Assembly (NCBI GenBank): GCA_030523765.1
Contig: JAUNHX010000004.1
Coordinates: forward strand, 85,553-149,552
DNA: 64,000 bases
Direction: 5' to 3'
Origin: Bacteroidales bacterium
GTDB taxonomy: Bacteria; Bacteroidota; Bacteroidia; Bacteroidales; P3
The number at the start of each line of letters is the position of its first letter. Positions within the stretch are counted from its first letter, which is position 1. Below, piece after piece: positions 25,505 to 41,571 of the stretch. The translations under genes were made by a program, and so were the position numbers. The notes under the pieces are model-generated. The model searched no databases. It was not told the DNA's origin and saw only the letters and a program-made list of their open reading frames with translations.

Positions 25505-25855
25505 TTACTGTACTTTGGGTTTGCGAATATAGTGGGGCATCTCGAAGGGAACGACTAACGAGAGTTCGATATAGCCTTTGAACTCGCCATTCTCAAACCA
25601 AGGGGTCTGATAGATGAGTTTCTTTTGTCCCTCTTTCTCGATGGTATATGCGTTAACATTGTGTTGCTCTAGCAAGTTTATCAGTTTGGTACGAGCAGGT
25701 TCTGGATGACAGTCGAGGAGGTTTTTACCAATGAGGGCTTCGCGTCCACCTCTCTTCTCGTAGAGACTACCAGCTTTGACGTTCATGTCTAAAATATTGC
25801 CATCAACATCGCTTACAGTGATGGCGCACGGGAGTTCTTCAAAATATTTTTCCAT
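25505..25855 (-). CDS. Small PAS domain protein
   Basis: A 116-residue single PAS fold: LPCAITVSDVDGNILDMN at the start, GKNLLDCHPEPARTKL in the helical region, and FKGYIELSLVVPFEMP as the last strand. There is no attached kinase, cyclase or DNA-binding domain. It could sense a small ligand or redox state and act on a partner, or contribute to metabolism of its neighbour phosphate butyryltransferase. The LLDCHPEP cysteine/histidine pair is a feature of this PAS subfamily. Function is unknown. Confidence 0.75.
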   Translation of the reverse strand: MEKYFEELPCAITVSDVDGNILDMNVKAGSLYEKRGGREALIGKNLLDCHPEPARTKLINLLEQHNVNAYTIEKEGQKKLIYQTPWFENGEFKGYIELSLVVPFEMPHYIRKPKVQ

Positions 25856-25980: not shown

Positions 25981-26889
25981 TTATTTGCACTGCAGCGATG
26001 CGAGAGCGATGCTATAGAGTTTGGTTTTAGCGCTGTCGCCACGCGAAGTGAGGATGCAAGGGATACGAGCACCAACAACCATGCATGCCAGTTCGGCACC
26101 AGCAAATTTGGTAGCGGTTTTGTAGAATACGTTGCCGGTCTCGAGGTTGGGGAAGAGGAGGCAGTCGGCATCGCCAGCTACAGGGCTAACAAGCTTCTTG
26201 GTCTCGGCAGCCTCTTTGTTGACGGCGATATCGAGGCTCAGAGGTCCTTCTACCTCGCAGCCTTTGATTTGGCCACGACGATTCTGCATGCAGAGCATAG
26301 CAGCATCGACACAGCTTTGGATGCCAGTAAGCATCTGCTCGGTGGGGCAGATAACAGCTACCTTAGGTTTCTCGATTTCGAGGCTCTTTGCGGTCTTTAC
26401 CAAATAGTTGAGGATAGCGGTTTTTTGTTTCAAATCGGGAGCGGGGATGATGGCTACGTCGGAGCAAACAAGCAGTTTGTGGTAAGCGGGAACTTCAAAA
26501 ACAGCCATGTGGGTCAGCATATCGTTCTTGGTGCCAGGCATGAGACCTTTCTCTTTGTTGAGGATAGCACGCATATATTTATCGGTGCTGAGCAGACCTT
26601 TCATCAGAAGGTCGCCTTTACCTTCGTTGATCAAAGCAACAGCTTTAACGCCAGCTTTGGTTTCGTCGGCTTCCTGAACCAGCTCGAATTTGTTTACGTC
26701 GATACCTTCGGCAGCGCACACTTTCTTAATGGTTTCGATATCGCCAACGAGGGTACCATCAACGATACCGAGGTCGATAGCGTTGCTAATAGCTCCAATG
26801 GTGTGGGAGTCGTTAGCGTAAGCACCTATAAGTCTTTTCTTACCTTTGCTCTTGGCAAGGTCAATCAGTTGGTCTAATTTGGTAATCAT
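25981..26889 (-). CDS. ptb: Phosphate butyryltransferase / branched-chain acyl phosphotransferase
   Basis: A 302-residue enzyme of the phosphate acetyl/butyryltransferase family. It converts butyryl-CoA (or isobutyryl/isovaleryl-CoA) and phosphate to the acyl-phosphate and CoA. Visible family features: KRLIGAYANDSHTIGAI at the start, LMKGLLSTDKYMRAILNKEKGL, VAVICPTEQM, and PSLETG-like FPNLETGNVFYKTATKFAG near the end. Length fits Ptb rather than the larger Pta. The usual partner butyrate kinase is not adjacent. Together with the 2-oxoacid:ferredoxin oxidoreductase 12 kb away it fits acyl-CoA-based energy conservation. Its promoter box is clear. Confidence 0.9.
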   Translation of the reverse strand: MITKLDQLIDLAKSKGKKRLIGAYANDSHTIGAISNAIDLGIVDGTLVGDIETIKKVCAAEGIDVNKFELVQEADETKAGVKAVALINEGKGDLLMKGLLSTDKYMRAILNKEKGLMPGTKNDMLTHMAVFEVPAYHKLLVCSDVAIIPAPDLKQKTAILNYLVKTAKSLEIEKPKVAVICPTEQMLTGIQSCVDAAMLCMQNRRGQIKGCEVEGPLSLDIAVNKEAAETKKLVSPVAGDADCLLFPNLETGNVFYKTATKFAGAELACMVVGARIPCILTSRGDSAKTKLYSIALASLQCK

Positions 26890-33581: not shown

Positions 33582-36500
33582 TTATTGTTTCATCAGTCGC
33601 AACATATAGGTTTCGTTGTTGTATCTGACAGTTATAAAATACATCCCTAAACGCAGATGTTGGGTGGAATATTGTATTGGCGACCCCGTTTTTGTTTCAA
33701 AAAAATCAACCTTCCTTCCTACAGCATCGTATACGGTGATGGTGGCTGAGATGGAGGAGCGGTCAAAATCGATGGTTACCCAATCGTGTGCTGGATTGGG
33801 GTACAGTCGTATGGGCGCCAGCGTTTCGATAGGGATAATCCCTAAGGTAGAATCATTGATTTTGCCAACCCAATAGGGATAACCAACCTCGTGGCTCCAT
33901 AGGGATAGAGGGAGTTGAATATCATCAATCCATCCGCAGTCGCTTCCCAAGGTGTGATCATCGTCTTTCGTGTAACTCCATCGTAGTATATGACTGCCTG
34001 CGGCAATGGGGATAGCTACTCGTTGCCAGTTGTTTATGCCCGACCAGGAACCTTTACCTTTTCCATCGATGGCAAATCCTACGCGGTCGTATTGCGTTTC
34101 GCTCGATGTACGTACATAGAAACTGATGCTATCAGCAGCGTTAACCGTAATGGGTAACTCGATTATCGATGTTTGACGACTGCTTATACTGTCGCTTCTT
34201 ATGGCATAGTGGCCCCCGTGAACGGTGTCGTCTACTAAGTGCCATGGGTTAGTATGCGTGTTACTCCAAGGGAATGTAGTGAGATTACCATTTTCAAAGG
34301 TCTCGGAAGCGAAACCTGCTAGGTAGTAGAATGGAAAGAGATGACTGATGCCGCTATAGGTGAGTTGCAGCTGACAATGGAGCGCCTGCAAACTGTCGGT
34401 CGTATGGAAATGCAGCCATTGGGTGTGATATCCTTGAGCAGTGATGTCGAAATAGGTTGTCTCTAGATCGTCGAAAGTAGCGCTATTGTTCATCAACGAA
34501 ACCATCATGCTTACCGAATCGGCGTCGACTGCTCCTTGATTTCGCCACATTAGCTGAATGTTATAATCGGTATCGCCCATCAGTATTTTGGCCGGTTCAT
34601 TGTTCAGCAATAGGAGAACAGAATCGAGTACTATTTCGGGTTGTATTAGGTTGAAATATAGTTCTTGAGAAGTGATGATAGCTCCCTCGCAACTATCGTT
34701 CATACTCAGCGTAATGCTACCACTCGTTAATTGTGGCCATGCGGTAAGGGAAAATGATAAGGTGTCGGATTGCTGTGGCAAAAGCGAGTCGATAACCATC
34801 AGCGACGGTGCCATCTGCATGTGATGAGAATGGAGAATCCAATAATGATTATATGCTGTATGTTGTCCGACGTTTTTTATCACTACTTGTAGCTGCTGCG
34901 GTTGGTTGGCTGTCAGCGTATTATCACCCGAAAGTAACCAACTCTCTGTAGCCACAATCCATTCTTCGACCCTTTCGTTTACAGCCATTCGGCGTATAAT
35001 CGGTTGGCGGTTTTGTGCCGTAACGGTAAGTAGCAAACTATCGGAAGAGAGGGGCTGTTGCAGATGAATGGTGCCGTTGCCTTGAGCATCTAGCAGGGTG
35101 CTACCTATATGGAGGGTGTCTTGCATTAAGGCTGCTAAGGCTCCAGGTTCGCCGTGAAGATCTAAGGTGGTGGCTCCAATGGTAGGAGGAGTAGAAAACT
35201 CAATCTCCATCGTGGAAGGGATACCTATATAAGGCATCAGTGAAGGATCGCCTAGCAAATGGTATACCTCCCAATAGAATGGTGCATAGGGCGATCCGTA
35301 TTGGCTTACTGCCATATTGCCAGCTATCAGCATCTGTGCTGCCGTTTGTATCCATTCGGTGTGGGGTTCTTGATGATGATGTAGCCAACGGTCGAACATC
35401 CCTAGGTGGAGCGAGTCGTAAGTGGGTATCAATGTGAAGGGATTCTTTGCTCCGAGGGCCCAATAGTAATCCTCGTTCCACAGCGTTTCGTTGGTAGCTC
35501 CGATGCTCCCTATCGCACCCCCTTGCTCTTTATATAAAAGATGTGATCCAAAACAGTTGCTTTGAAACTGATTAGCCAAACAGCAGTTGTTGATCACCAT
35601 ACTATAGCGTCCGTTGGCAGGCATAGAATCGATATCGGTAGTGTTGATGGTAGGATGAAACCAGCCGGAAGAGAAACTGTGGCCCGTATAGTTTACCAAC
35701 CCAGCCCCTTGTTGCCATTGAAGCATGATGCTGTCGCGTTGGTTTATCGATGTGGGATTATAGTAGCAGAGGGTATCGATGTGGCTATTAGCTTCAAGTA
35801 GTTGATGTTTCACGTAGTTGATTTGCCCATTAGTAGTGATGGGCGCTACATCGCGGTTTTCGGTGCCAGCAATCAGTAGGGATCGGTTTAGATAAGAGGT
35901 GTCTGCAAGCTGATATTTTTCGTAGGCAATAGTTTTTTCTATTACAGCACGCAGTTGCGAGCTATCGGCCACAGGCCATCGACCTATGAGTGCATCGGGT
36001 AATTCATCACCTGTAAATTCGGCAAAATAGAGGTCGGTAGGGTGACTGCTCATACCGGGAAGTTGGTGGCGACTGCTATTGCTTTGCAAAAGATCGTTGT
36101 TGCCTACAAGTAGGATAAATGTGGGGGTAGGGGTGAATGGAGTATGGTAACGTTCTTGGAGTCTTTGGCGGATGGTATCGCGACTATAGGTGTCAATCAG
36201 TAGTTGTTCAACTACATAGCCTTGCTGTTGTTTCCATTCAATGAAGGGCTTTAATGTTTCTGCAAAAATTGGGCGACTCACTATCAAATAATGTATTGGA
36301 AGTTGAGGCGTGAGATTTTTTCCTGTTAGATTGGGGAAGAAAGGCGATGCCCCTTGCTGCCACGATTGAAGGGTGGCATCGCTGTTACTACCAGGGAAAG
36401 TGATGTTGATTCTTAGATGGCGGTGCACCTTTATCATACCTTGGGCAGCATTGTACTCTATAGGTGCGATGCTGAGTAGCGCCAATCGCTGACCTCGCAT

Positions 36501-36971
36501 AGTTCCCAGTGGAGTTAGGGTTACAAGGGGGAGCCGATAAAAACTATCGGCATCGTAAATGGTAGGGTTGACTTTGGGCAGCAGCGAAGGAAGATTACGT
36601 GAGGCAGATTCAGCAACTGGGAGCAGCGGAAGACTACAACCCAACTGCTTGAGGGATAGAGTTTCACTCTCCAAATCAGACACCTCGACGGCAATCTCGC
36701 CCCCTTCAGGAATAACCACAATCTGGTTTACCATTGGTAGGGTAGGGAATCCCTCTTTCGTGTTGCTATGTGGCAACGAGGGGGAATGGAGTAGTGCGAA
36801 TCCCTCAGTAGGATAAACAATCGATAATCGCCCCATTTCAAATTCGCATTGAAGGGTGTCCATACTGCTCTTTATCACCAATGGGTTATCCGTTGGTAGT
36901 TGTGCTTGCAATTTAGTGATGCTCAAAAGCAGCATTGCAGCAGTCAACAGTATATGTATCAGTTGTTTCAC
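33582..36971 (-). CDS. Gingipain-like C25 cysteine protease with T9SS C-terminal sorting domain
   Basis: An 1129-residue secreted protein. A signal peptide (to about residue 23) is followed by a prodomain to about 220, then a C25 catalytic domain (about 225-590) with the His motif LVNYTGHSF (His431) and VINNCCLANQF (Cys463/464) as the presumed dyad. An Ig-like and CARDB-like segment, a cleaved-adhesin-type jelly roll (about 890-1035; WHLVDDTVHGGHYAIRSDS, GWIDDIQLPL) and a C-terminal sorting domain follow (IRLYPNPAHDWVTIDFD to the end GMYFITVRYNNETYMLRLMKQ). The sorting domain directs export by the type IX system and usually anchoring on A-LPS. It could be a cargo protease, or PorU, the sortase of the same family; the adhesin domain favours cargo. 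Confidence 0.82.
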   Translation of the reverse strand: MKQLIHILLTAAMLLLSITKLQAQLPTDNPLVIKSSMDTLQCEFEMGRLSIVYPTEGFALLHSPSLPHSNTKEGFPTLPMVNQIVVIPEGGEIAVEVSDLESETLSLKQLGCSLPLLPVAESASRNLPSLLPKVNPTIYDADSFYRLPLVTLTPLGTMRGQRLALLSIAPIEYNAAQGMIKVHRHLRINITFPGSNSDATLQSWQQGASPFFPNLTGKNLTPQLPIHYLIVSRPIFAETLKPFIEWKQQQGYVVEQLLIDTYSRDTIRQRLQERYHTPFTPTPTFILLVGNNDLLQSNSSRHQLPGMSSHPTDLYFAEFTGDELPDALIGRWPVADSSQLRAVIEKTIAYEKYQLADTSYLNRSLLIAGTENRDVAPITTNGQINYVKHQLLEANSHIDTLCYYNPTSINQRDSIMLQWQQGAGLVNYTGHSFSSGWFHPTINTTDIDSMPANGRYSMVINNCCLANQFQSNCFGSHLLYKEQGGAIGSIGATNETLWNEDYYWALGAKNPFTLIPTYDSLHLGMFDRWLHHHQEPHTEWIQTAAQMLIAGNMAVSQYGSPYAPFYWEVYHLLGDPSLMPYIGIPSTMEIEFSTPPTIGATTLDLHGEPGALAALMQDTLHIGSTLLDAQGNGTIHLQQPLSSDSLLLTVTAQNRQPIIRRMAVNERVEEWIVATESWLLSGDNTLTANQPQQLQVVIKNVGQHTAYNHYWILHSHHMQMAPSLMVIDSLLPQQSDTLSFSLTAWPQLTSGSITLSMNDSCEGAIITSQELYFNLIQPEIVLDSVLLLLNNEPAKILMGDTDYNIQLMWRNQGAVDADSVSMMVSLMNNSATFDDLETTYFDITAQGYHTQWLHFHTTDSLQALHCQLQLTYSGISHLFPFYYLAGFASETFENGNLTTFPWSNTHTNPWHLVDDTVHGGHYAIRSDSISSRQTSIIELPITVNAADSISFYVRTSSETQYDRVGFAIDGKGKGSWSGINNWQRVAIPIAAGSHILRWSYTKDDDHTLGSDCGWIDDIQLPLSLWSHEVGYPYWVGKINDSTLGIIPIETLAPIRLYPNPAHDWVTIDFDRSSISATITVYDAVGRKVDFFETKTGSPIQYSTQHLRLGMYFITVRYNNETYMLRLMKQ

Positions 36972-37184: not shown

Positions 37185-37222
37185 TCAAAAAAAAGCGTCA
37201 CTTCCCGTAGTGGCGCTTTTCC
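37185..37222 (-). terminator. Terminator of the candidate noncoding RNA
   Basis: An 11-bp stem (AAAGCGTCACT with AGTGGCGCTTT, one G-U) and 6-base loop. The minus strand continues with eight T residues. Confidence 0.88.
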
Positions 37223-37480
37223 CATTCTGCCTTTGGGTGGCAGCCTTTCTCTCTCATACGGTTTCCCGACCGCAGGTCCTTGTTTGAGTTTTGAGGCTCT
37301 TTCTTTGCCGACGCCCATGCTAAAGGGGCACTTGACATTGTGTCGGCGGACAGGAGAGAAAGGAAATTATTAATCCTAAAACTAAAAGTCATGTTTTTGG
37401 GTCCTTCTCGGATACCTTTTATTGTTGATTGTCTGTTATTTGATGGCAATAAAGAGTCAAATCCTTTCTTTCTCTTTTCG
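37186..37480 (-). ncRNA. Candidate structured noncoding RNA with its own promoter and terminator
   Basis: On the minus strand a transcript of about 295 nt would start near 37480, after TACTTTTG at 37485-37492, and end at a strong terminator. Pairings visible: a 10-bp helix (37244-37253 with 37354-37363) closing a domain; inside it GCCGAC/GTCGGC (37307-37312 with 37342-37347) and CGGT/ACCG (37259-37262 with 37269-37272); outside it CTGCC/GGCAG (37227-37231 with 37239-37243). It does not show the signatures of RNase P RNA, tmRNA, SRP RNA or 6S RNA that I know. Family unassigned. Confidence 0.55.
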
Positions 37481-37484
37481 ATTG

Positions 37485-37492
37485 CAAAAGTA
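37485..37492 (-). promoter_or_regulatory. -7 box (TACTTTTG) of the candidate noncoding RNA
   Basis: The minus strand reads TACTTTTG, fitting TAnnTTTG. No protein-coding gene lies downstream before the terminator. Confidence 0.5.
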
Positions 37493-37592
37493 CTACCGTT
37501 TCAGAGAGTTTCAGATACCTAATTGTAGTGAAAAACGTTTTAGCGATTCACTAATTCTTGTAAAAAGAGACTGCCAGATGGCCCTTTTTTAG

Positions 37593-37600
37593 TATCTTTG
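37593..37600 (+). promoter_or_regulatory. -7 box (TATCTTTG) of cutC
   Basis: Perfect consensus match, 18 bases upstream of the ATG at 37619. A TTG inside the box at 37598 is in frame but cannot be both promoter and start. Confidence 0.75.
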
Positions 37601-37618
37601 CACTGTTTAATAAATAAT

Positions 37619-38338
37619 ATGATATCTGTTATGTTGTTGGAAATCTGTACTAATTCGTTGCAATCGGCTAAAGCTGCCTGTCTCGGTGGTGCCAAAAGAG
37701 TGGAGTTGTGTCAAGATTTAGCCTCGGGTGGCATCACCCCTTCGGCTGGTTTGATTGATTACTGTGTCCATCAGTTGGGATTGGAGACGCGTGTTTTGAT
37801 CCGTCCTCGTTCAGGTAATTTCACCTATTCTACCGACGAACTCGAAGTCATCGCCCGTGATATTGAGATGTGTCGACAGATAGGGGCTGCTGCAGTAGTG
37901 ATAGGTTTCCTAAATGAAACAGGTGCTATCGATGTGGAAACAACACGTCGAATGGTAGAGTTGGCTGCTCCTATGGAGGTAACATTTCATCGTGCCTTTG
38001 ATGCTTGTTGCAGTCCCTTCGAGGCATTGGAACAGTTAATAGCATGCGGATGCCACAAGTTGCTCACCTCAGGGTGTGCCCCTTCGGCTATAGAGGGCGC
38101 TGCCACAATTCGCCAACTCGTACAACAATCGCGCGGACGGATCGATATTATTGCTGCCGCTGGCATCACTCCCTACAATGTGTTGCAAGTGGTAGAAGCA
38201 ACGGGAGTGAACGAGGTTCACGGCTCCTGTAAACGAGCAGGCAACCCTACCGATGGAGGCACCAACCTTTTTCCCTTTACCGAAAGCGTAACCGATGAGC
38301 AGCAAGTACGCCAAATGGTATCGCTGCTAAATATATAA
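37619..38338 (+). CDS. cutC: CutC family protein
   Basis: A 239-residue TIM-barrel protein of the CutC family: LLEICTNSLQSAKAACLGGAKRVELCQDLASGGITPS near the start, VLIRPRSGNFTYS, VTFHRAFDACCSPFEALEQLI, and LTSGCAPSAIEGA. CutC was named for copper homeostasis, but a direct copper role in bacteria is disputed. The ATG at 37619 or the one at 37631 (MLLEIC) may be the start; both lie after the promoter box. It is a single-gene unit convergent with the oxidoreductase operon. Confidence 0.92.
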   Translation: MISVMLLEICTNSLQSAKAACLGGAKRVELCQDLASGGITPSAGLIDYCVHQLGLETRVLIRPRSGNFTYSTDELEVIARDIEMCRQIGAAAVVIGFLNETGAIDVETTRRMVELAAPMEVTFHRAFDACCSPFEALEQLIACGCHKLLTSGCAPSAIEGAATIRQLVQQSRGRIDIIAAAGITPYNVLQVVEATGVNEVHGSCKRAGNPTDGGTNLFPFTESVTDEQQVRQMVSLLNI

Positions 38339-38570: not shown

Positions 38571-39122
38571 TTACACAGTCTGAACAGTTTCGATGAGGCC
38601 TTTACCGATCTCGATAGCTTCCTCGTTCTGGGGAATGAGGTTGTGGTGACGAGCGGGGAGCGATTTCTCCAGACCCTTGTGGATGAACTCGGGAGCCACG
38701 ATGGGTTTCAGTTTGAGGAAACCACCCAGGACAACCATGTTGAACACCTTGCTGATACCCATTTCCTGAGCCTTAGCGGTGGCAGCAATCTTATAGATAT
38801 TGATGTCTTTGCGGGTAGGCTCGTGGGTGATACCATTGGGGTCATAGATAAGAACGCCGCCAGGTTTCACAGTGTGCTCAAATTTGTCGAGCGACTGCTG
38901 GTTGAGGATGATAGCGGTGTCGAACTCATTGATGATGGGCGAGCTGATGCGTTCGTCGCTGATGATGACGGACACGTTAGCAGTACCACCACGCATTTCG
39001 GGACCGTAGCTGGGCATCCAGCTTACTTCTTTGTCTTGCATTACGCCAGAGTAGGCAAGGATTTTACCCATAGAGAGTACGCCCTGACCACCAAAACCGG
39101 CGATGATTATTTCTTCTGTCAT
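38571..39122 (-). CDS. 2-oxoacid:ferredoxin oxidoreductase, gamma subunit
   Basis: A 183-residue subunit with IIIAGFGGQGVLSMGKILAYSG, SWMPSYGPEMRGGTANVSVIIS and FNMVVLGGF. It is the gamma subunit of the VOR/KOR type complex that oxidatively decarboxylates 2-oxo acids (branched-chain or 2-oxoglutarate) to acyl-CoA and reduces ferredoxin. It is last in the operon, separated from the beta gene by 145 bases that contain a perfect GTCGAAG/CTTCGAC inverted pair. Confidence 0.9.
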   Translation of the reverse strand: MTEEIIIAGFGGQGVLSMGKILAYSGVMQDKEVSWMPSYGPEMRGGTANVSVIISDERISSPIINEFDTAIILNQQSLDKFEHTVKPGGVLIYDPNGITHEPTRKDINIYKIAATAKAQEMGISKVFNMVVLGGFLKLKPIVAPEFIHKGLEKSLPARHHNLIPQNEEAIEIGKGLIETVQTV

Positions 39123-39144
39123 TTTTTTTTCGTTTCGTTTATCG

Positions 39145-39189
39145 GTCGAAGGGTTGAGCCTTTAGGGTGAGGCTGATAGCCTCTTCGAC
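39145..39189 (-). promoter_or_regulatory. Stem-loop between beta and gamma subunit genes
   Basis: GTCGAAG (39145-39151) and CTTCGAC (39183-39189) pair perfectly. The enclosed part has further AGCCT/AGGCT complementarity. Possible processing or attenuation element within the operon. Confidence 0.45.
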
Positions 39190-39267
39190 ATTGATTAATG
39201 AATAATACTTAAAATAGATAAGGGGAATCGACTACAGCGTGTAAGTTGTTCCTATTGTATCTACTTT

Positions 39268-40098
39268 TTATTTGGACTGTACACTCAGTGCGTGATCCAT
39301 GACAAGGCGGTTCAAATCAACGCCCTCGGCCAGTTTGCCGTCAACTTTGATGTCGCCGATAGGATAGTTGGGGAACATGTTCTCTTCCATCCACTTGTTG
39401 GCTGCGGGAGCAGTCATCTTCCAGCCTGAGTTGCAGTTAGAAACGATCTCAACGAAGGAGACGCCTTTCTTCAGCTTCTGGTTCTCGAAAGCTTTCTTGA
39501 TGGCAGCTTTGGCTTTGCGGACAGCCTGTGGAGTGTGTACCGACTGACGGGTAATGTAGTAGGTGCCAGGCAGGGTAGCCAGCAGCTCGGTCATACGCAG
39601 GGGATAACCGTTGAGTTCTACATTACGGCCGTAAGGAGTTGTTGCCGAACGCATACCTACGAGGGTGGTAGGAGCCATCTGGCCACCGGTCATACCATAG
39701 ATACCGTTGTTAACGAAGATCATGGTGATATTCTCGCCACGGTTAGCAGCGTGAATGGTCTCAGCAGTACCGATAGCGGCGAGGTCGCCGTCGCCCTGAT
39801 AAGTGAATACATACATATCGGGGTTGAGTCGTTTAGCTGCGGTAGCCAGTGCGGGAGCACGTCCGTGAGCAGCCTCTTGGAAGTCGACATTGAGGTAGTT
39901 GTAGGCCAATACGGAGCATCCTACAGGAGCTACGCCCATAACATTGTCCTGAATGCCAAGTTCTTCAATAACTTCGGCGATGATGCGGTGAGTGGTACCG
40001 TGACCGCAACCGGGGCAGTAGTGCATAGTGGCTTCGGTCAGTACGCTCGATTTCTTATAAACCAGGTTCTCGGGTTTTACTATATCTAAATTTGCCAT
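39268..40098 (-). CDS. 2-oxoacid:ferredoxin oxidoreductase, beta subunit (thiamine diphosphate-binding)
   Basis: A 276-residue subunit. It shows CPGCGHGTTHR (28-38), the thiamine diphosphate/Mg motif GDGDLAAIG (102-110) and FVNNGIYGMTGGQ. It binds the thiamine cofactor that attacks the 2-oxo acid. No ferredoxin domain is fused; the separate ferredoxin gene upstream supplies the clusters. Nine bases separate it from the alpha gene. Confidence 0.92.
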   Translation of the reverse strand: MANLDIVKPENLVYKKSSVLTEATMHYCPGCGHGTTHRIIAEVIEELGIQDNVMGVAPVGCSVLAYNYLNVDFQEAAHGRAPALATAAKRLNPDMYVFTYQGDGDLAAIGTAETIHAANRGENITMIFVNNGIYGMTGGQMAPTTLVGMRSATTPYGRNVELNGYPLRMTELLATLPGTYYITRQSVHTPQAVRKAKAAIKKAFENQKLKKGVSFVEIVSNCNSGWKMTAPAANKWMEENMFPNYPIGDIKVDGKLAEGVDLNRLVMDHALSVQSK

Positions 40099-40106
40099 AC
40101 TGATTC

Positions 40107-41189
40107 TTATTTAACGATTTTGTTTTCTAATGCTTCCAGTACCTCGGTGGGGGTGGGGATGATACCGCCGAAACGGCCGAAGTGTTCAACCTTAACACCG
40201 CAGTTGGTAGCGAGCTTAACATCTTCAATCATCTGACCGGCGCTCATTTCGACAGTCAAGATGCCCTTAACGTTCTTGGCAACTTCGGCCAGCTGGGTCT
40301 TGGGGAAGGGGAAGAGGGTAATGAGACGGAAGATACCGACTTTGATGCCCTTTTCGCGAGCCAGTTGCATAGCCTTCATAGCGATACGCGAGCTGGAACC
40401 GTAGGCAACGATGATATATTCAGCATCTTCGCAGTTGATCATCTCGTAGCGAGTTTCGTTCTTCTCCATTTCGCGGTATTTAGCCTGCAGTTTGTGGTTG
40501 AAGACTTCCTGCTTAGCCGAGTCGAGCTCGAGCGAGGTGATGATGTTGTGGTCGCGAGTAGCAGGTTTGCCCCAGGTGCCCCAAGGAGCATTCTTGCGGC
40601 GTTCTTCCTCAGTCCAACGGGGAAGGTTGTCGCGAGTGTAGAGTTTCTCCATGCACTGACCGATAGCACCATCGGAAAGAATCAGAACAGGGTTACGATA
40701 CTTGAAGGCGATATCCCATGCGTCGAATACAAAGTCGTACATCTCCTGTACAGAAGCGGGAGCCAAAGTGTAAAGCTGATAGTCACCGTGTCCACCGCCT
40801 TTAACCGACTGGAAGTAGTCGGACTGTGAAGGTTGGATAGTACCCAGTCCGGGACCACCGCGCATAACGTTAACGATCAGGCAGGGGATTTCAGCGCCAG
40901 CAAGGTAGGTAAGACCTTCCTGCATCAGCGAGATTCCGGGCGAGGAGGAAGAGGTAGCCACTTTCTTACCAGTAGCAGCTCCACCGTAAACCATATTGAT
41001 GGAAGCCACTTCGCTTTCAGCTTGAAGAACAACCATACCGGTGGTTTCCCAAGGTTTTTCGAGCATCAGGGTTTCCATAACTTCCGACTGCGGGGTGATA
41101 GGATAGCCAAAGTAGCCGTCCGTACCGCTGGCAATCATAGCGCGAGCAATAGCTTCATTGCCCTTCATTAATTTCAATTCTTTTGCCAT
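40107..41189 (-). CDS. vorB: 2-oxoacid:ferredoxin oxidoreductase, alpha subunit (VorB-like)
   Basis: A 360-residue subunit with the pyrimidine-binding domain (GNEAIARAMIASGTDGYFGYPITPQSEVMETL), TSSSSPGISLMQEGLTYLAGAEIP and the C-terminal transketolase-like half (YGSSSRIAMKAM, TLFPFPKTQLAEV). In Bacteroidales this gene is generally annotated as 3-methyl-2-oxobutanoate dehydrogenase subunit VorB; 2-oxoglutarate (KorA) activity is the main alternative and cannot be excluded from sequence. It is the second gene of a four-gene operon. Confidence 0.88.
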   Translation of the reverse strand: MAKELKLMKGNEAIARAMIASGTDGYFGYPITPQSEVMETLMLEKPWETTGMVVLQAESEVASINMVYGGAATGKKVATSSSSPGISLMQEGLTYLAGAEIPCLIVNVMRGGPGLGTIQPSQSDYFQSVKGGGHGDYQLYTLAPASVQEMYDFVFDAWDIAFKYRNPVLILSDGAIGQCMEKLYTRDNLPRWTEEERRKNAPWGTWGKPATRDHNIITSLELDSAKQEVFNHKLQAKYREMEKNETRYEMINCEDAEYIIVAYGSSSRIAMKAMQLAREKGIKVGIFRLITLFPFPKTQLAEVAKNVKGILTVEMSAGQMIEDVKLATNCGVKVEHFGRFGGIIPTPTEVLEALENKIVK

Positions 41190-41211: not shown

Positions 41212-41430
41212 TTAACATTTAACTTTGTAGACGGAGATTACACCATCGGGGCATACGATAGCGCAGCTAGCGCAACCGATGCACTTGTCATTTACGGATT
41301 CTAGGTAGTTGTAACCTTTGCCGTTTACATGCTTCGACAAGGCGATGCACTGCAGGGGGCATGCTCCTACGCATACTCCACATCCTTTGCAGCGTTCGGT
41401 GTCGATGACTATTTGTCCTTTAAATGCCAT
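41212..41430 (-). CDS. 2x[4Fe-4S] ferredoxin subunit of the 2-oxoacid oxidoreductase
   Basis: A 72-residue protein with two cluster motifs, CKGCGVCVGACP and CIGCASCAIVCP, each of the CxxCxxCxxxCP form. It transfers electrons from the thiamine site to soluble ferredoxin. It is the first gene of the operon, 22 bases before the alpha subunit. Confidence 0.93.
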   Translation of the reverse strand: MAFKGQIVIDTERCKGCGVCVGACPLQCIALSKHVNGKGYNYLESVNDKCIGCASCAIVCPDGVISVYKVKC

Positions 41431-41571
41431 AGTTTTAGTTTTATATGATTAATAATATTATTTCTTTGATTGGCTAACGCTCATCGCACCCTTTCAGTAG
41501 AAATATCAAAAACCTTGTAAGGCTTTGATTTCCACATCGAGGCGTAATCAACGCTTCGCTTTATCAGATTG

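Follow-up and report, generated by a model that had tools for sequence, protein, structure and literature searches.

A predicted small RNA gene in a Bacteroidales genome whose conserved core complements the translation starts of ferredoxin oxidoreductase and [FeFe]-hydrogenase operons

RyhB and FnrS of Escherichia coli are Hfq-dependent small RNAs (sRNAs), and in each case one sRNA turns down iron–sulfur or redox enzymes together. In Bacteroides thetaiotaomicron, the sRNA GibS uses a conserved, long, AU-rich and single-stranded seed to pair around the start codons of metabolic mRNAs and represses without a protein partner in vitro, as described in its report (PMC7366714), from which the promoter consensus TAnnTTTG used below was also taken. 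FopS of the same species is present in 14 copies of 65–70 nt, is bound by RbpB and represses by pairing at translation starts, again through a long, AU-rich and single-stranded seed, according to its description (PMC11697453).

Here we describe a locus of a Bacteroidales bacterium that probably encodes a trans-acting sRNA whose core would pair with the starts of a por/vor operon and of two hydrogenase operons and likely repress them. The stretch analysed, referred to as the window, comprises 64,000 nt of contig JAUNHX010000004.1 (assembly GCA_030523765.1, positions 85,553–149,552, forward strand). The predicted RNA appears to be new and narrowly distributed, and it would belong to a kind, the base-pairing sRNA, that is already known. 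Like GibS, it is intergenic and would be trans-encoded, with a long conserved AU-rich predicted seed, in a phylum that lacks Hfq, the two being compared by description and not by the letters of their seeds; unlike GibS, it would carry its seed internally rather than at the 5′ end, and its predicted targets differ. With FopS it shares the canonical TAnnTTTG promoter and predicted pairing at translation starts, but it is present as one copy in its genome, would measure about 295 nt (175 nt in a sister species) and was found without an accompanying RRM protein.

The predicted sRNA occupies 37187–37484 on the minus strand, with its 5′ end estimated to lie within a few nucleotides of 37481. Directly upstream is a −7 box of the TAnnTTTG type (TACTTTTG, 37492–37485, minus strand), which is identical in the sister genome; inspection of the sequence revealed no clear −33 TTTG upstream of it. 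The transcript would begin with a purine-rich 5′ leader (37466–37484), continue through a 26-nt core, GACUUUUAGUUUUAGGAUUAAUAAUU (37365–37390), which is the predicted seed, and a 120-nt own-species expansion closed by a 10-bp helix (37244–37363), and end with a 3′ hairpin, CUGCC/GGCAG (37227–37243), and an intrinsic terminator (37187–37218), all on the minus strand. The terminator consists of nine pairs around a single C–A mismatch, which is kept in both species, followed by U8 (T8 at 37194–37187); an automated scan did not call this mismatch-bearing stem as a terminator. The promoter box, the strong eight-T terminator and the perfect 10-bp helix (37363–37354 with 37253–37244, indexed by script) on which the original prediction relied were all present where it had placed them. 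Its statement that the RNA could not be matched to RNase P RNA, tmRNA, SRP RNA or 6S RNA is borne out by the Rfam covariance models, which gave no match in the region at the gathering cut-off and three chance matches only at E ≤ 10, the sister region behaving likewise. The 6S model RF00013 had no match at E ≤ 10 in the genome, a blank that says little, since Bacteroides controls were equally unmatched and the model may not reach Bacteroidota.

The divergent neighbour is cutC (37598–38338, plus strand; ATG at 37619 or 37631). Between the cutC and sRNA promoters we infer a candidate regulator site at a dyad, TTAGTGA-N16-TCACTA (37526–37554, minus strand), whose arms and spacing are equal in the two species and whose spacer has diverged. 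On the other side lies a gene for a C25-type protease (33582–36971, minus strand; the family name is that of the original prediction). The unit stands on the same strand as this gene and directly upstream of it in both species, as would a cis-acting leader or attenuator of the protease. Such a role is extremely unlikely, however, because the protease gene has a TAnnTTTG box of its own (TATATTTG) after the sRNA terminator in both species, the intervening spacer is unalignable and varies from 25 to 220 nt, and the C25 orthologues at 16 other loci, inspected by eye (one of them, L062, on the wrong strand and another, L065, short), are not accompanied by the sRNA unit.

Of 120 genomes of the genus, 100 gave a match to cutC. 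The closest match (78%) was in the sister genome G132, which is 76% complete and whose cutC contig is a rumen Bacteroidales record (CAJOQB010000216.1). The order C25–sRNA–cutC is the same there, and the orthologous unit is 175 nt long. Across the unit plus promoter, blastn aligned the two loci as three separate segments: the promoter with the 5′ end (53/69 identities), the core (26/26) and the 3′ hairpin plus terminator (55/70). The 5′ leader is identical at 17 of its 19 positions, and all five pairs of the 3′ hairpin are invariant. At the position of the expansion, G132 has a short hairpin, CTTGCA-ACA-TGCAAG, and lacks the 10-bp helix together with the hairpins that it encloses; the parts kept in both species are the promoter, the 26-nt core, the 5-bp 3′ hairpin and the terminator. 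In the flanking genes, 33 of 94 fourfold sites (cutC) and 123 of 305 (C25) are identical between the species (35–40%), and identical stretches there extend to at most 18 nt (cutC) and 20 nt (C25). The locus rises above chance through its conservation in the sister species, and the 10-bp helix lies outside that conservation.

Large nested helices had been put forward as the main feature of the RNA. The fold of the own-species unit alone barely exceeds chance: its z-score is −1.48 for a 299-nt version (15 of 200 shuffles equally stable), −1.64 for a 298-nt version (11 of 200) and −1.22 without the terminator (20 of 200), and a perfect inverted repeat of at least 10 arose in 10 of 200 shuffles. 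The G132 unit folds with a z-score of −3.55 (0 of 200 shuffles), falling to −1.55 without its terminator (15 of 200). Three terminator pairs are changed on both sides between the two species and are thus compensatory, a result that 56 of 500 shuffles equal for two sequences; the 10-bp helix is absent from G132. Of the structured noncoding RNA first envisaged, a predicted RNA gene with its promoter and terminator and with no Rfam relative remains; the large nested structure, absent from G132, is not supported as its main feature, the constant parts being the core, the 3′ hairpin and the terminator.

The expansion may instead be a species-specific spacer and stabiliser, and the 3′ hairpin and terminator would supply a stable 3′ end. 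A reading of the expansion as a mobile insert was dropped, as its own genome held no second copy at E ≤ 0.001. The CCCA loop of the 3′ hairpin could pair with UGGG just downstream, making a candidate tight pseudoknot. The core is partly paired in the predictions, with a mean unpaired value of 0.61 in one species and 0.57 in the other. A weak and interrupted pairing between the 5′ leader and the core, with 13 pairs in both species and two one-sided changes, is also predicted, but against 1000 shuffles the duplex gave 0.078 and 0.186 and was not clearly beyond chance. Because of this closeness to the shuffles, and because the actual 5′ end of the RNA may fall downstream of the first four bases of the pairing, a latch between leader and core is suggested only tentatively.

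The distribution of the unit is narrow. Allowing up to three mismatches, the core was found in 2 of 120 genomes of the genus and 2 of 190 of the family, the own genome included, and its exact match among genome contigs was confined to one record, that of G132. Viral contigs matched neither the core nor cutC, and blastn in 61 relatives returned the own locus plus two chance stretches in a single genome (G026). Across the order, a 23-mer of the core matched 75 of 393 genomes; these matches were treated as chance, because a reversed-pattern control was about as frequent (approximately 67, counted by hand). When a covariance model was built for the 3′ domain, 74 of 120 genomes gave matches at E ≤ 1, and the two species discussed here alone exceeded 33 bits (89.2 and 95.7 bits for own and G132); the ten best other alignments were plain terminators in which the CUGCC/GGCAG hairpin was missing as modelled or broken.

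The 83-codon frame previously noted in the unit does exist, running from a TTG start over 37449–37198, and could make the locus a small protein gene. It is free of stop codons in each of the two species and stays in register across both indels, a coincidence that arises in 0.36% of free shuffles and 0.64% of shuffles with the blocks fixed; the stop-free stretch as a whole spans 37198–37478 (minus strand), in register in both species. A coding function is nevertheless very unlikely. A protein search found no homologue, and the G132 frame has no ATG, GTG or TTG either upstream of the core or within it. In addition, all eight core codons are identical between the species, compared with 81 of 178 and 299 of 652 codons at conserved residues of the neighbouring genes, with the caveat that the por genes, which are under strong protein constraint, also hold identical runs of up to 56 nt. 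Moreover, the reading frame is displaced in the 3′ domain by an indel of 1 nt, and the changes in the terminator are compensatory. Judged from the sequence, the most plausible role of the core is that of an antisense seed directed at mRNA starts.

The foremost predicted target lies approximately 4 kb from the sRNA in the window. Its site, AUUAUUAAUCAUAUAAAACUAAAA (41433–41456, minus strand), ends 2 nt before the AUG at 41430, where the leader reads AUUAUUAAUCAUAUAAAACUAAAAC-U-AUG, and shows 21 Watson–Crick matches with the core around one 2-nt gap. The predicted pairing is the same in G132, in which the last 26 nt of the leader region are identical. The operon that follows on the minus strand encodes a 2-oxoacid:ferredoxin oxidoreductase (por/vor): its first gene (41212–41430; Pfam Fer4) specifies the 4Fe-4S ferredoxin (delta) subunit, and the remaining genes (38571–41189) specify the alpha (40107–41189; POR_N, NCBIfam VorB subfamily at 515.9 bits against a cut-off of 399), beta (39268–40098; TPP) and gamma (38571–39122; POR) subunits.

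A gapped alignment score was adopted after this site had been spotted by eye. By that score, the por/vor leader site ranked first of all non-self sites in 55,196 windows (670 kb of the own genome and 20 kb of G132), and of 100 shuffled cores one attained its score at the top-scoring start among 1863 ORF starts. The own-genome sample covered 823,238 of 2,397,220 bases (34.3%) with 634 non-overlapping ORF starts, and the top start sites were those of por/vor (33), of an operon with rex, a [2Fe-2S] ferredoxin and hydrogenase B1 (32) and of a hydrogenase A6 operon (31). Among 400 shuffled cores, 8 reached the best score and none the second best or the top-five sum, and the sense, reversed and complement-only controls peaked at 26, 27 and 22, respectively. 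For the sister species, 81 stretches of G132 were sampled (762,738 bases, approximately 40% of the genome; 707 starts), in which the two best starts were the orthologues of the por delta gene (30) and of the hydrogenase A6 operon (28), the next scoring 24; here, 12, 3 and 4 of 400 shuffled cores reached the best score, the second and the top-five sum. A scan of both strands of this sample at a score of at least 26 recovered the por site, the A6-operon site and the sRNA locus alone. By the gapped score, the conserved predicted seed complements several mRNA starts beyond chance in both species. A fourth site in the own genome, before a 116-aa ORF (window 25505–25855) with no Pfam or NCBIfam match, scored 27 in the own species and 10 in G132, so it is not kept. 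At the start of a phosphate butyryltransferase gene (window 25981–26889; L214:15641–16546), the core complement scored 22 and 21, which is not beyond chance alone.

Other measures were less discriminating. An energy-based test on 455 starts, from which the 72-aa por delta gene was left out by a length filter, was weak: 7 of 100 shuffles gave an equally low mean, and the difference between starts and mid-gene positions was equalled in 34 of 100. The count of ungapped sites was likewise weak (five sites in the 60 nt preceding starts, a number reached in 6 of 60 shuffles). An ungapped complement search gave nine non-self sites in the own genome, where the reversed control gave three, and no site in G132; it did not pick up the por site, owing to the 2-nt gap in its pairing. 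Ranking by duplex energy was unspecific, G–U-rich windows elsewhere reaching −20.7 versus −16.9 for the por site.

The second predicted target operon (L143:4380–9997, own genome) comprises rex, a [2Fe-2S] ferredoxin gene, a Fe_hyd_lg_C-PAS gene, a SpoIIE gene and a monomeric [FeFe] hydrogenase called as group B1 (529.8 bits, cut-off 450). The start that would be paired is that of the [2Fe-2S] ferredoxin gene, which overlaps the end of rex, and an orthologue of the operon was absent from the 81 G132 stretches. One predicted target operon of the sRNA is Rex-linked. The third operon, also in the own genome, contains a 127-aa gene followed by genes for a NuoF-like subunit, an NADH-dependent [FeFe] hydrogenase called as group A6 (865 bits, cut-off 765) and a NuoE-like subunit. 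The 127-aa gene had no family match, and we take it to be HydD/HndB-like; its product is 72% identical to the G132 orthologue. The leader of this gene has diverged between the species, and the two versions are predicted to pair with the core at different places, the own leader through 21 matches with one gap and that of G132 through 14 contiguous matches plus GACU/AGUC. Such drift with the pairing kept is as predicted by selection on pairing. The distance from the end of the site to the AUG is 2 nt for por in both species, 12 nt for hydrogenase B1 and approximately 9–10 nt for the 127-aa gene, and in the predictions the sites are more open than their complete leaders. Cofolding of the full sRNA with the leaders gave gains of −15.1, −13.5, −18.6, −13.4 and −18.5 kcal/mol.

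A motif shared downstream of several promoters would look alike in a string comparison if the core and the leader sites were copies of a single transcription-factor operator in the DNA, placed in opposite orientations. We consider this quite unlikely, given that the central gaps differ among the sites (1–5 nt), which a rigid operator would not tolerate, that all five compared sites are antisense to the core and just before an AUG, and that the sense and reversed controls score lower. It is also conceivable that the small RNA is real and its core serves as a binding site or decoy for a protein, the leader matches being a by-product of AU richness. The core is AU-rich and fully conserved, and its UAGGAU (37376–37381) is shared with the GUAGGAUA motif of B. 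thetaiotaomicron RbpB, as given in PMC12119571. However, dinucleotide-shuffled cores do not reproduce the leader matches, and neither an RRM_1 protein nor Hfq was found in the own genome or in G132 (76% complete), although a Bacteroides control genome was positive for RRM_1. An RRM-protein reading of UAGGAU was rejected on this ground, and a protein site in general is highly improbable.

Under the antisense reading, the sRNA would be made and its core would then pair with the target leaders in the cell, where pairing at the starts would block ribosome entry and lower translation, by analogy with GibS and FopS. Complementarity gives no direction, and pairing might activate or stabilise the leaders, or the leaders might act as sponges of the sRNA; repression of initiation was chosen because the sites lie a few nucleotides from the AUG, where, according to their reports, GibS and FopS repress, and the opposite or sponge-like effect is unlikely. 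One RNA would in this way lower ferredoxin reduction and H2 release together. It would act like RyhB and FnrS, a likeness of function, on different enzymes. The predicted regulon is unusually coherent, and the shuffle statistics cover the scores and not the functions of the targets. A search of the open-licence PubMed Central literature, on partly narrow terms, turned up no paper on an sRNA with these enzymes as its targets in bacteria of this type, which is a weak negative.

On balance, we lean towards the fuller proposal that one Hfq-independent sRNA, through a 26-nt seed, shuts the por operon and both [FeFe]-hydrogenase operons and so serves as a post-transcriptional switch of fermentative H2 production in rumen Bacteroidales. 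If this is true, a phylum without Hfq would possess a metabolic sRNA with a coherent regulon, and the release of H2 and the reduction of ferredoxin in rumen Bacteroidales, which feed methane formation, would be under RNA control.
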